NCBI RefSeq assembly: GCF_016658865.1
Contig: NZ_CP067992.1
Location: 1,073,001 to 1,137,000 of the forward strand
Source of the DNA: Streptococcus mitis
Lineage (GTDB): Bacteria > Bacillota > Bacilli > Lactobacillales > Streptococcaceae
DNA: 64,000 nt
Direction of reading: 5' to 3'
The position numbers and the translations under genes are program-made. Shown here in pieces: positions 2,336 through 20,737 of this stretch; within the stretch, counting starts at the first letter, position 1, and the number at the start of each line of letters is the position of its first letter. The notes beneath the pieces are model-generated. The model was not told where the DNA came from, did no database searches, and saw only the letters and a program-made list of their open reading frames with translations.

Positions 2336-4486
2336 ATGAAGAAAAATTTTCTAGCATTTTTGCTAATTTTATTCCCAATTTTCTCATTAGGTATTGCTAA
2401 AGCAGAAACAATTAAGATTGTGTCTGATACCGCCTATGCACCTTTTGAGTTTAAAGATTCAGATCAAACTTATAAAGGAATTGATGTTGATATTATCAAC
2501 AAAGTCGCTGAGATTAAAGGATGGAACATTCAGATGTCTTATCCTGGTTTTGACGCAGCGGTCAATGCGGTTCAAGCTGGTCAAGCTGACGCTATCATGG
2601 CTGGAATGACAAAAACTGCAGAACGTGAAAAAGTTTTCACCATGTCTGATACTTACTATGATACAAAAGTTGTCATTGCCACTACTAAGGCACACAAGAT
2701 TAGTCAGTATGACCAATTGTCTGGTAAAACTGTTGGGGTTAAAAATGGAACTGCCGCTCAACGTTTCCTTGAAAGTATTAAGGACAAATACGGCTTTAGT
2801 ATTAAAACATTTGACACTGGTGATTTGATGAACAACAGCTTGAGTGCTGGTGCCATTGATGCCATGATGGATGACAAACCTGTTATCGAGTATGCTATTA
2901 ACCAAGGTCAAGACCTCCATATTGAAATGGATGGTGAAGCTGTAGGAAGTTTTGCTTTCGGTGTTAAAAAAGGAAGCAAATACGAACACCTTGTTACTGA
3001 ATTTAACCAAGCCTTGGCTGAAATGAAAAAAGATGGTAGTCTTGATAAAATCATCAAGAAATGGACTGCATCATCTTCTTCAGCAGTGCCAACCACAACT
3101 ACTGCAGCTGGTCTAAAAGCAACTCCTGTTAAAGCTAAATACATCATTGCCAGCGATTCTTCTTTTGCACCTTTTGTTTTCCAAAACTCAAGCAACCAAT
3201 TTACTGGTATTGATATGGACTTGATTAAGGCCATCGCTAAAGACCAAGGTTTCGAAATTGAAATCACCAACCCTGGTTTTGATGCTGCTATCAGCGCTGT
3301 TCAGGCTGGTCAAGCAGATGGTATCATTGCAGGTATGTTTGTCACAGATGCTCGTAAGGCAACTTTTGATTTCTCAGAATCTTACTACACAGCCAATACT
3401 ATCCTCGGTGTAAAAGAATCAAGCACCATTGCTTCTTATGAAGATTTAAAAGGGAAGACAGTCGGTGTTAAAAACGGGACTGCTTCTCAAACCTTCCTAA
3501 CAGAAAATCAAAGCAAATACGGTTACAAAATCAAAACCTTCGCTGATGGTTCTTCAATGTATGACAGTTTAAATACTGGAGCAATCGATGCCGTTATGGA
3601 TGATGAACCTGTTCTCAAATATTCTATCAGTCAAGGTCAAAAATTGAAAACTCCAATCGGTGAAACAGCCTTTGCCGTTAAAAAAGGAGCAAATCCAGAA
3701 TTGATTGAAATGTTCAATAACGGACTTGCAAACCTTAAAGCAAACGGAGAATTCCAAAAGATTCTTGATAAATACCTAGCTAGTGAGTCTTCAACTGCTT
3801 CAACAAGCACTGTTGATGAGACAACTATCTGGGGCTTGCTTCAAAACAACTACAAACAACTCCTTAGCGGACTTGGTATCACTCTTGCTCTAGCTCTTAT
3901 CTCATTTGCTATTGCTATTGTTATCGGGATTATCTTCGGTATGTTTAGCGTTAGCCCCTACAAATCTCTTCGCGTCATCTCTGAGATTTTCGTTGACGTT
4001 ATCCGTGGTATTCCATTGATGATTCTTGCAGCCTTCATCTTCTGGGGAATTCCAAACTTCATCGAGTCTATGACAGGTCAACAAAGTCCAATTAACGACT
4101 TCGTAGCTGGTACTATTGCCCTCTCACTCAATGCAGCTGCTTATATCGCCGAAATCGTTCGTGGTGGTATTCAAGCCGTTCCAGTTGGTCAAATGGAAGC
4201 CAGCCGAAGCTTGGGGATCTCTTATGGAAAAACCATGCGTAAGATTATCCTGCCACAAGCAACTAAATTGATGTTGCCAAACTTTGTTAACCAATTCGTT
4301 ATCGCTCTTAAAGATACAACTATCGTATCTGCTATCGGTTTGGTTGAACTCTTCCAAACTGGTAAGATTATCATTGCCCGTAACTACCAAAGTTTCAAGA
4401 TGTATGCAATCCTTGCTATCTTCTATCTTGTAATTATCACACTTTTGACTAAACTAGCGAAACGCTTAGAAAAGAGGATTCGTTAA
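2336..4486 (+). CDS. glnP: Glutamine/glutamate ABC transporter, fused double substrate-binding protein and permease
   Basis: A 716-residue fusion that supplies both binding and membrane parts of a polar amino-acid importer. A signal peptide (about residues 1-23) is followed by two tandem bacterial solute-binding domains (about 25-245 and 268-482) that share near-repeated blocks such as [12 protein letters not shown] and GVKNGTA. A permease domain with several membrane helices follows (about 498-716), carrying the EAA loop ([18 protein letters not shown]). The layout matches lactic-acid-bacterial GlnP with two substrate-binding domains per subunit. The stop overlaps the glnQ start by one base, so the genes are coupled. 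A GlnR box upstream supports glutamine as substrate. Confidence 0.93.
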
Positions 4487-5226
4487 TGGCAAAATTAAAA
4501 ATTGATGTAAATGATTTACACAAAAGCTACGGAAAAAATGAGGTTTTAAAAGGAATTACAACTAAGTTCTATGAAGGAGATGTTGTTTGTATCATCGGTC
4601 CTTCAGGTTCTGGTAAGTCAACCTTCCTCCGTAGCCTCAATCTTCTAGAAGAAGTCACTAGTGGTCACATCACTGTGAACGGTTATGACTTAACTGAAAA
4701 AACTACCAACGTTGACCACGTCCGTGAAAATATTGGAATGGTTTTCCAACACTTCAACCTCTTCCCACACATGTCTGTATTGGACAACATCACTTTTGCT
4801 CCTATTGAGCACAAGTTGATGACTAAGGAAGAAGCTGAGAAATTGGGAATGGAGTTGCTTGACAAGGTTGGGCTAGCAGATAAAGCTAATGCTAATCCAG
4901 ATAGCCTATCAGGTGGTCAAAAACAACGTGTGGCTATCGCTCGTGGACTAGCAATGAATCCTGATATCATGCTCTTTGATGAACCAACTTCTGCCCTTGA
5001 CCCTGAGATGGTTGGAGACGTACTAAACGTTATGAAGGAATTGGCTGAGCAAGGTATGACCATGATTATCGTAACCCATGAGATGGGATTTGCCCGTCAG
5101 GTTGCCAACCGCGTTATCTTTACTGCAGATGGTGAATTCCTTGAAGACGGAACACCTGATCAAATCTTTGATAACCCACAACACCCACGTCTGAAAGAGT
5201 TCTTGGACAAAGTATTAAACGTCTAA
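4486..5226 (+). CDS. glnQ: Glutamine ABC transporter ATP-binding protein
   Basis: A 246-residue ATPase that powers the GlnP importer on the cytoplasmic face. Walker A is GPSGSGKS near residue 38, the Q-loop is [10 protein letters not shown] near 88, the ABC signature is [16 protein letters not shown] near 141, and Walker B is [12 protein letters not shown] near 164, followed by the switch histidine in VTHEM. These are typical of polar amino-acid transporters of the GlnQ/HisP type. It is translationally coupled to glnP through a TAATG overlap and is followed by an intrinsic terminator. Confidence 0.96.
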
Positions 5227-6909: not shown

Positions 6910-8199
6910 TTAGATTAAGCCTTCCAAGAGACCCTTCATAAAGTTTTCTGAGTTAAACTCTCCAATATCATCGATTTTTTCACCAAAACCAATCAATTTT
7001 ACAGGAATATTGAGTTCTTCACGGATGGCTAGAACCACACCACCTCGAGCAGTTCCATCAATCTTAGTCAAGACAATTCCAGTTAATGGCGTGATTTTTG
7101 AAAATTCTTTGGCCTGTACAAGAGCGTTTTGACCTGTTGATGCATCCAGAGCCAAGAAGGTTTCATGGGGTGCATCTGGAACAACACGCTTGATGATGCG
7201 TCCAATCTTTTCCAACTCAGCCATGAGGTTGTCCTTGTTTTGTAGACGACCAGCAGTATCAATCATGAGAATATCGATACCTTCAGCTACAGCACGTTCC
7301 ATGCCATCAAAGACCACACTGGCTGGGTCAGCTTTTTCAGGTCCAGTCACAACTGGAACGTCCACACGACGGCCCCATTCAGCAAGCTGAGCTACCGCCC
7401 CTGCACGGAAGGTATCTGCAGCAACCAACATGACCTTCTTACCAGCTTGTTTGTAGCGGTGGGCTAGTTTTCCGATAGAAGTTGTTTTCCCAACACCATT
7501 AACACCAACAAAGAGCATGACTGTCAAGCCATCTTGGAAATGGATTTGTTCATCGTAGTTGCCATCCTTTTCGTAGAGTTCAACCAATTTCTCGATAATG
7601 ACACGGCGAAGTGCATCAGGCTTCTTAGCGTTTTCGAGTTTAGCTTCATAGCGGAGCTCTTCTGTTAGGTTCGAAGCGACCTGCACACCGACGTCACTCA
7701 TAATCAGTAATTCTTCCAGTTCCTCGAAGAATTCTTCATCGACAGAACGGAAGTTAGCAAAGAAGGCATTCAAGCGTGCTCCGAATCCCGTACGCGTTTT
7801 CTTGAGACTACGGTCATATTTTTCCTGAACAGTTTCTTCTGCTTGAGACCTTTCTGCTTCAAGCACTTCAAAGCTATTTTCTTCTACAGTTCCTTCGTGC
7901 TTAAGCTTCTCTTCATCTGAGACTTCTTCTGAGTTTGAAAATTCTTCTATTTCTTCTTGAGAAGCCTCTACAGCTGGTTCTGAATCCAGACTTTCTTCAA
8001 CTGTGTCTTGATTATCCTCTTCTTCGAGCGCAGATTCTTCAGAACTTTCAACCTCTGCTTCTTCTTGAGGAACTTCCTCAGCTTCTGTTAAGGCTGGCTC
8101 AACATCTTCAGACAAATCAAGATTTTCCAGAGCTTCTTTTACAACTTCTTCGATTTTAGGTTCTTCTTTTTTTCCGAATAGACGGTCAAATAATCCCAT
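6910..8199 (-). CDS. ftsY: Signal recognition particle receptor FtsY
   Basis: The GTPase that docks SRP-ribosome complexes at the membrane for co-translational insertion. The 429 residues have a long acidic, Glu-rich N-terminal A domain (about 12-125) and then the N and G domains. The G motifs are G1 GVNGVGKTTSIGKLA, DTAGR, and TKIDGTARGG near the end. The A domain is low-complexity with many EE repeats, as is usual and variable in streptococcal FtsY. It is the last gene of a cof-cof-ftsY unit, with three bases between the upstream stop and this start. Confidence 0.97.
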   Translation of the reverse strand: MGLFDRLFGKKEEPKIEEVVKEALENLDLSEDVEPALTEAEEVPQEEAEVESSEESALEEEDNQDTVEESLDSEPAVEASQEEIEEFSNSEEVSDEEKLKHEGTVEENSFEVLEAERSQAEETVQEKYDRSLKKTRTGFGARLNAFFANFRSVDEEFFEELEELLIMSDVGVQVASNLTEELRYEAKLENAKKPDALRRVIIEKLVELYEKDGNYDEQIHFQDGLTVMLFVGVNGVGKTTSIGKLAHRYKQAGKKVMLVAADTFRAGAVAQLAEWGRRVDVPVVTGPEKADPASVVFDGMERAVAEGIDILMIDTAGRLQNKDNLMAELEKIGRIIKRVVPDAPHETFLALDASTGQNALVQAKEFSKITPLTGIVLTKIDGTARGGVVLAIREELNIPVKLIGFGEKIDDIGEFNSENFMKGLLEGLI

Positions 8200-20040: not shown

Positions 20041-20071
20041 AAATAAAAAACCGCAAGCCTGAGCCTGCGGT
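20041..20071 (-). terminator. Second terminator downstream of the structured RNA
   Basis: Minus-strand stem ACCGCA/TGCGGT with an internal GGCTCAGGCT, followed by TTTTTTATTTTT. It backs up the first terminator at 20103-20127. Confidence 0.8.
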
Positions 20072-20095: not shown

Positions 20096-20223
20096 AAATA
20101 AAAAAGGAGCATTTAAGCCCCTCCTTTGAAATAACGGACATTTGGCTGGTCGGTGTACCCAGCATCTCAGATACCTTTTTCAAGGTGCGGCAGGAACCTT
20201 TCTGCCCTCAAATGTCTTTCGTT
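20096..20223 (-). ncRNA. Structured small RNA with a four-way junction, family not recognised
   Basis: About 125 nt, with a strong promoter upstream and an intrinsic terminator at its end. Stem P1 pairs GACATTTG with CAAATGTC (20209-20216 with 20137-20144). Inside it are three hairpins: GGCAG/CTGCC (20202-20206 with 20089+100 to 20193), ACCTT/AAGGT with a GAAA loop (20073+100 to 20186), and GCTGG/CCAGC (20145-20149 with 20159-20163). After P1 come AAAGGAGG and the terminator stem AAAGGAG/CTCCTTT followed by U-run. I cannot match it to TPP, FMN, purine, preQ1, SAM, 6S, SRP or tmRNA. It could be a trans-acting RNA or an orphan riboswitch-like leader. Confidence 0.72.
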
Positions 20224-20229
20224 AATGTA

Positions 20230-20258
20230 ATTCTAGCACTATCTACTTCTTTTGTCAA
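20230..20258 (-). promoter_or_regulatory. Strong promoter of the structured RNA
   Basis: Minus strand TTGACA (20253-20258), a 17-base spacer and TAGAAT (20230-20235) with a TGC extension. It is a near-perfect SigA promoter and lies inside the 3' end of the neighbouring coding sequence. Confidence 0.85.
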
Positions 20259-20619
20259 GCTTTATCAATCTACCAGACTTAATACGACTTTGTAACTTGT
20301 AATCTTGTAAACGATACATGGTCGGAACATAAAAGAAATCTCCACTTTTATGTAACTTGATGGCAACAAGAACATTATCATCAAATCTTTTAACATATTC
20401 AAAACTGGCGCCTTTCTCTCTAGGATTGACCCCAACGAAATCTGGATTACTTAGTATAAGTTCCAAATCTTCGATATGATGAATCACATCATTATGATGC
20501 CGTTTCAACATATGACTTCTTAAACCTTCTTTGTTAACTTTGATATCACTAGCTTCAAGAACAATATTAAAAATTTCTTTTATTTCGTCAGTAACCTGAC
20601 CGATCTTTTTATGTTCCAT
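20239..20619 (-). CDS. PBECR-like (predicted RNase-fold) small protein
   Basis: A cytoplasmic protein of about 126 residues. The C-terminal two thirds (HMLKRHHNDVIHHIEDL, then NPDFVGVNP, SFEYVKRFDDNVLVAIKL, and a basic tail) resembles PBECR-type domains. These are a barnase/EndoU/colicin E5/RelE-fold nuclease group found in phage polyvalent proteins and orphan toxins. That match is from memory, not a search. A His-rich RHHNDVIHH segment could hold catalytic residues. Two ATGs stand in tandem; the second (ending 20619) is preferred because GGAGG is only two bases from the first. It has its own -10 (TATAAT, 20643-20648). No antitoxin gene is seen, but the structured RNA starts inside its 3' end. 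Confidence 0.65.
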   Translation of the reverse strand: MEHKKIGQVTDEIKEIFNIVLEASDIKVNKEGLRSHMLKRHHNDVIHHIEDLELILSNPDFVGVNPREKGASFEYVKRFDDNVLVAIKLHKSGDFFYVPTMYRLQDYKLQSRIKSGRLIKLDKRSR

Positions 20620-20737
20620 CATTTCCTCCGTTATTCACAATTATTATATCACAATCATAGTGTATATTAGGATATATCACGCTCTATTATTCGTTAGATA
20701 CTCAATTTTAACTTTTCCCTTTTCCTTAAAATAATAG

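Follow-up and report, generated by a model that had tools for sequence, protein, structure and literature searches.

A skipping-rope RNA beside a predicted PBECR3 RNase gene in Streptococcus mitis: a candidate RNA antidote also found behind phage head-protein genes

We analysed a stretch of 64,000 nucleotides from Streptococcus mitis (assembly GCF_016658865.1, contig NZ_CP067992.1, positions 1,073,001 to 1,137,000 of the forward strand), hereafter called the window, and within it a small structured RNA. The RNA belongs to the Rfam family skipping-rope. It lies between a gene which we presume, as did a preliminary description of this DNA, to be tex and a gene encoding a predicted RNase of the PBECR3 family, with which it may form a two-part module. 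The features of the locus are the following:

20137..20216, minus strand: skipping-rope RNA core, with closing stem P1 and hairpins P2, P3 and P4 (Rfam match, fold z of -3.53, covariation)
P2 loop GGU with P4 loop ACC, minus strand: predicted kissing pair of the window RNA (loop-loop complementarity; only 3 bp in the window)
20230..20258, minus strand: RNA promoter TTGACA-17-TAGAAT (11/12 consensus matches, TG preceding the -10)
20100..20127, minus strand: RNA terminator hairpin of 11 bp (from the fold; U-tract paired into the stem)
20050..20071, minus strand: second, standard terminator-like hairpin (pattern scan)
20239..20622, minus strand: predicted RNase PBECR3, 127 aa, whose stop codon precedes the RNA core by 22 nt; putative toxin of the pair

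The preliminary description had assigned the RNA to no recognised family. This was wrong: an Rfam search matched the core to RF02924, skipping-rope, with 74.8 bits, and because this is above the curated cut-off of 36.7 bits the idea of an unknown RNA family was rejected. The covariance model is matched over its full length (positions 1-80 of 80), and the closing stem, three hairpins and pseudoknot of the family are all found in the window RNA taken with its relatives. The Rfam entry is typed 'Gene; sRNA', with no function given in the output. Skipping-rope is recorded among phage RNAs in a passage of PMC8501573, and a figure legend of PMC7779021 presents a covarying pseudoknot for the family. 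The window RNA is a full-length member with four helices and a pseudoknot, to which the present analysis adds the link with PBECR.

The other elements of the preliminary description were recovered. The promoter lies at 20258-20230 on the minus strand, the strand having been left unstated, and its -35 box falls within the last codons of the nuclease gene; of the 9 promoter-like sites detected between 19500 and 21000 it scored highest, shuffled sequences giving 5.5 sites on average. The transcript 20223-20100 (minus strand) folds at -44.1 kcal/mol (z -3.88, none of 200 shuffles as good) into the announced 8-bp closing stem, lengthened by a short outer stem, and three hairpins, followed by the terminator hairpin. 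The plus strand over 20125-20260 folds less well (z -1.64, 10/200 shuffles as good). Both predicted terminators were found, the first from the fold and the second by the pattern scan, which missed the first and listed only 20071-20050 (minus strand).

The structure was then followed across relatives. Over 97 distinct relatives, standard pairs occupy 91.0% of the base-pair cells against 65.7% in shuffles, and 569 cells carry two-sided changes against 174, although the model used to fit the alignment had itself been derived from 37 of these RNAs, so that the alignment leans toward that structure. Changes on both sides affect 18 of the 23 pairs, with at least one pair in each of the four stems. 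The number of pairs with two-sided change could not be separated from shuffles (18 vs 16.8, 68/500 as high), nor could the number of further pair types (63 vs 61.8, 207/500 as high), and the middle hairpin is the weakest of the four stems (76.8% paired). The P2 and P4 loops of a same RNA are more complementary than swapped loops (mean 9.46 vs 7.21, sd 0.26, 0/1000 permutations as high). The sequence of this kissing pair turns over wholly yet stays complementary: GGU:ACC in the window, CCGCC:GGCGG or CUGUC:GACAG in phages. The loop-loop pairing is a feature that the preliminary description did not contain. The core has a conserved structure without any variable guide segment.

Transcription signals were searched in the 130 unique loci with flanks. 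A promoter-like site was found in 93 (12% in shuffled flanks) and a terminator in 96 (4%); by these simple scores, no promoter-like site was seen in 37 loci and no terminator in 34. In a Halanaerobiales genome (G453/L320) and in locus L347, the RNA lies on the strand opposite to the nuclease gene, in convergent orientation. This orientation, seen in two unrelated organisms, marks the RNA as a separate gene and not simply a 3' untranslated region. Promoter, fold, flanking signals and covariation together support an independent, terminated and possibly trans-acting RNA, as first proposed. The companion suggestion of an orphan sensor found no support, since the RNA is located downstream of its accompanying gene and not before it. 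A riboswitch or cis-acting leader was discarded on this ground, together with the RNA's own promoter and terminators and its convergent orientation in the two cases above.

The PBECR-like nature of the neighbour was confirmed by its Pfam profile. The protein matches PBECR3 (PF18812) with 63.7 bits for a cut-off of 30, over a PBECR domain only, without MuF fusion. According to passages of PMC5512222, PBECR domains have predicted RNase activity, occur in solo and MuF-fused forms and carry an active-site His plus a Thr or Ser; the target is proposed there to be mRNA or CRISPR RNA, and no RNA partner is named in those passages. The window protein conforms to this description as a PBECR3 member, the RNA partner being added here. 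His37 is present in all 25 aligned nucleases and is located in helix 31-40 of an AlphaFold2 model built from 25 sequences (pLDDT 91.5), and reading the alignment by eye shows a Thr or Ser at the fold position which those passages specify. The best fold matches of the model in the PDB, all weak, are RNase toxins including BrnT, HigB and RelE; PDB sequence searches returned nothing useful. Among viral proteins, a minor capsid protein matches best (7e-6), and MuF C-terminal proteins are among the ten viral matches below E 0.001. Over 7 intact streptococcal copies dN/dS is 0.089, so the gene is under constraint and does not decay where it is kept. The window protein is thus a predicted RNase.

We next considered the association from the side of the protein. 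Comparison of the neighbourhoods revealed that in 26 genomes one gene cluster occurs no more than 1.5 kb from the RNA; in the nine nearest cases it is located 18-22 nt upstream. The cluster corresponds to PBECR3 in the window and to PBECR3 or PBECR2 in the others. Among 157 streptococcal genomes, 18 encode PBECR3, with one gene each, and all 18 have the RNA alongside, a count that includes G112, whose RNA is cut by the contig end, and G150, whose gene has an internal stop. In Bacillota, PBECR3 was found in 24 genes, two fragments of a single gene being counted together: 17 of the 19 in open reading frames (ORFs) of at most 520 aa adjoin the RNA, compared with 0 of the 5 in giant ORFs of more than 600 aa (Fisher p 0.0005). 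PBECR2 gave 12 matches in 11 of 348 genomes, 11 of them with the RNA alongside; 10 of the 12 coincide with PBECR3 genes. Six phage records hold a relative of the window nuclease. Two were examined: in one (L240) the RNA follows the nuclease gene by 18 nt, and the other record ends at the gene end.

The same arrangement is found behind phage head proteins. Viral contigs were fetched with the C-terminal domains of two capsid-fused proteins (23 and 1 contigs, respectively), both of which had first been met beside the RNA. The RNA is present in 23 of these 24 contigs, several of which are near-identical (17 distinct RNAs). In 22 of them its start is 12-43 nt past the stop codon of the capsid-fused gene, in one the distance is 2268 nt, and the 24th contig ends at the gene. 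In 18 capsid-fused proteins (16 from contigs and 2 from reference phages) we detected PBECR2 in 15, Phage_Mu_F in 11 and Phage_min_cap2 in 6. In pneumococcal phage DCC1738 and in Javan235, the 2 examined of 20 listed phage records, the RNA lies about 15 nt after the MuF gene, whose C-terminus is distantly PBECR-like (hhalign probability of 94.7%, E 6e-8, for its alignment with the L421 C-terminus, compared against the other MuF C-termini). Most MuF toxin genes are followed by a small ORF, which passages of PMC5576092 interpret as a possible immunity gene. Our phage loci resemble these polymorphic toxins in combining a phage head protein that ends in a putative toxin domain with a neighbouring gene of presumed protective role; they differ in that an RNA gene directly follows the PBECR-type MuF gene, where a further small ORF may also be present. 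The window copy differs further in being a solo nuclease, the MuF fusion occurring in its phage relatives.

One-sided loss was also observed. In five relatives of the tex locus (L065, L077, L078, L094 and L095), the nuclease gene is reduced to its end and the RNA is intact, and the same remnant is retained in L066, L098 and L099. In these 8 nuclease-less loci the remnant holds the -35 of the RNA promoter. No PBECR3 gene without the RNA was found in the 157 streptococcal genomes. The RNA thus outlives the nuclease and never the reverse in the sampled genus, the pattern expected of a toxin and its antidote. Moreover, nuclease and RNA diverge jointly: their distances correlate with r 0.74 over the 34 pairs under 75% protein identity (0/5000 permutations).

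Such near-obligatory linkage and joint divergence would suit any physical partnership between a protein and an RNA. The RNA could for instance be a cofactor or substrate, the nuclease processing or needing it and the processed RNA acting as effector or regulator; type III toxins likewise process their RNA (passages of PMC5086642). We give this explanation a small share of our belief. The RNA kept at eight streptococcal loci after deletion of the nuclease would be odd for a mere cofactor, it is present in the complete records of two satellite phages (L243 and L244) in which no PBECR3-like gene was detected by profile, and its core lacks the variable guide segment noted above.

RNA copies away from PBECR2/3 are found in phages, satellites and islands, where their neighbours are lysins, integrases, toxin-antitoxin genes (TenpN-like toxins among them), NYN and DUF3800 genes. 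They would agree with simple hitch-hiking, RNA and nuclease being independent phage cargo deposited at the ends of late operons, at capsid genes or near attachment sites, and the RNA having an unrelated role such as countering host defence. We consider this somewhat less probable still than a cofactor role, given the spacing of 12-43 nt in 22 of the 24 viral contigs, the 18/18 linkage in streptococci, the joint divergence, the absence of the RNA beside the 5 giant PBECR proteins and its occurrence where no phage genes are visible, as in the window locus. A search of about 5 kb around the RNA found neither a PBECR nor a MuF C-terminus in L106, L109 and L113, whose kissing loops are those of the MuF-linked L114 and L421. 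These common loops suggest that stand-alone copies may protect against foreign nucleases. Some RNA-only copies lie downstream of possible nucleases: NYN in L224 (by Pfam), an NYN-like gene in L279 (by eye) and DUF3800 in L089 and L340 (by Pfam). These neighbours may be there by chance or may be further partners.

We propose that the skipping-rope RNA and the adjacent PBECR2 or PBECR3 RNase gene form a two-part module with the RNA as antidote, a reading to which we assign a probability of about 0.68. In its favour are the covarying fold, the RNA's own promoter and terminators, the almost invariable presence of the RNA when one starts from the nuclease gene, joint divergence and one-sided loss; from these we infer that the protein is toxic and that the RNA binds and thereby inhibits it. 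A strong promoter of its own, situated at the 3' end of the nuclease gene or within that end, would drive the RNA, which would fold into a four-way junction locked by the kissing pair between two hairpin loops. The RNA could then bind and block the nuclease, or fill its active site as an uncleavable substrate look-alike. The nuclease occurs on its own, the form present in the window, or fused to a phage minor head protein (MuF or min_cap2) whose C-terminal domain it then makes up; in the fused form it could be injected into the next host, following the published MuF model. The RNA would then protect the producing or newly lysogenised cell, and stand-alone copies would protect against the nucleases of others.

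Several results weigh against this proposal. Seen from the RNA, PBECR2/3 adjoins just 17 of 33 RNA places in the phylum sample and 24 of 41 RNA matches in the named genomes, two sets that overlap partly and that include one gene followed by two RNAs. Among the 17 PBECR3 genes in short ORFs counted as linked, two depend on weak RNA matches: G208 has 36.5 bits, just under the Rfam cut-off, and G514 has 26.6 bits in our own model. Three PBECR matches in short ORFs have no adjacent RNA (G492, G548 and G501); in G492 just 171 bases of contig remain after the gene, and the other two are below the Pfam cut-off. No solved structure matches the nuclease significantly in a PDB structure search (best E 0.028). 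PBECR4, a sister Pfam family, occurs in 59 of the 157 streptococcal genomes with the RNA alongside in only 2, and no RNA was detected in 30 PBECR4 loci scanned with our own RNA model; PBECR4 was accordingly ruled out as a general partner of the RNA. The eight losses may go back to no more than two deletions, given that one scar is common to five loci and another neighbour to the other three. The correlation between protein and RNA may partly follow host phylogeny. Finally, MuF loci may contain a further small immunity ORF beyond the RNA that directly follows the gene. Because the losses may be few and because of this possible ORF, we lowered our estimate from 0.7 to 0.68.

An RNA antidote encoded beside its toxin invites comparison with known toxin-antitoxin classes. 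In a type I system the RNA would pair with the nuclease mRNA and block its translation. The small RNA is indeed encoded beside the gene, but it is not antisense to it, and its predicted pairing with its own mRNA start region shows no clear excess (-34.5 vs -33.3 for those of others, sd 0.7, 124/2000 permutations as low). We regard a type I antitoxin as very improbable. The likeness to type III systems (ToxIN, CptIN, TenpIN) is greater: both combine an endoribonuclease, here a predicted one, with a small structured pseudoknot RNA on mobile elements. Type III toxins are MazF-like whereas the nuclease is here of the PBECR kind, and the window protein matched neither TenpIN nor ToxN in NCBIfam. 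As described in passages of PMC5086642, the type III antitoxin consists of tandem repeats upstream of the toxin, with one promoter and a terminator in between; here the RNA is usually single, downstream and equipped with its own promoter, two copies being found in three relatives (L249, L340 and L402). As toxin kind, gene order and repeat structure depart from the class definition given in those passages, the module, if it works as proposed, is most likely type III-like in logic without being a type III member.

A wider reading is that skipping-rope is the RNA half of an unrecognised class of RNA-protein conflict systems. One architecture, from streptococci to clostridia and treponemes, would neutralise PBECR2/3 RNases, including those built into phage heads and possibly injected, and the stand-alone copies on chromosomes, phages and satellites would be genetic vaccines. 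We put this at even odds. If true, skipping-rope would serve as the immunity factor, made of RNA, against a polymorphic toxin that phages deliver. RNase toxins would then be held by RNA in a second way that arose independently, the nuclease family, RNA architecture and gene order all differing from those of type III systems. The RNA family itself was already known, and its PBECR RNase partner appears to be new: among the matches listed, no title or abstract beginning joins skipping-rope with PBECR or with an antitoxin role. An orphan RNA family thereby gains a concrete protein partner and a testable function. For PBECR RNases, and for the MuF head proteins fused to them, the RNA is conversely a candidate immunity factor that would escape searches for small immunity proteins.

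Skipping-rope is patchily distributed. Using strict filters that lose weak matches, we found it in 42 of the 157 streptococcal and 28 of the 398 Bacillota genomes, a single genome holding as many as four copies. Among named genomes it was also seen in treponemes and one Halanaerobiales bacterium, and streptococcal phages and satellite phages carry it as well. The genome of the window contains a second, diverged copy (L064 5001-5082, genome positions 1880331-1880412) with a long loop-loop pair, downstream of a gene resembling a phage transcriptional activator (phrog_248); no PBECR3-like gene was found within 5 kb of it. The tandem pairs, whose members differ in sequence, are located at 74-151 and 285-363 in L249, 3216-3292 and 3382-3450 in L340, and 4454-4537 and 4561-4645 in L402. 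In satellite phage Javan99 (L244), the Rfam sRNA SpF41 at 7856-7958 precedes by 42 nt the skipping-rope at 8001-8078; a pattern for the satellite-type RNA gave no match in the viral contigs.

Near-identical RNAs are preceded by PBECR3, PBECR4 or TenpN-like genes in L068, L069, L079, L085, L087, L093 and L097, as though the left-hand gene had been exchanged by prophage ends while the RNA stayed in place. In four streptococcal loci skipping-rope abuts a TenpN-like gene, and in three it lies 278 nt ahead of such a gene. These streptococcal phage toxins are 171 aa long; the L068 protein, the only one for which the match was tested, reaches 75 bits with NCBIfam TenpIN, below the cut-off of 90. Five viral contigs with TenpN-like genes (66-71% identity, among 14 fetched) gave no match to our RNA model, and another conserved RNA-like segment lies ahead of the toxin gene in the six TenpN-like loci whose upstream stretch was printed. 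Skipping-rope was thus ruled out as the partner of TenpN-like toxins, and we read their association as a common insertion spot. The upstream segment is single-copy (3846-3990 in L377; also in L378, L380, L068, L066 and L098). In L377 it shows no tandem repeats, corresponds to no Rfam family and folds no better than shuffles (z -1.33). The segment has promoter-like and terminator-like ends, and from its position and conservation we would guess that it is an RNA.
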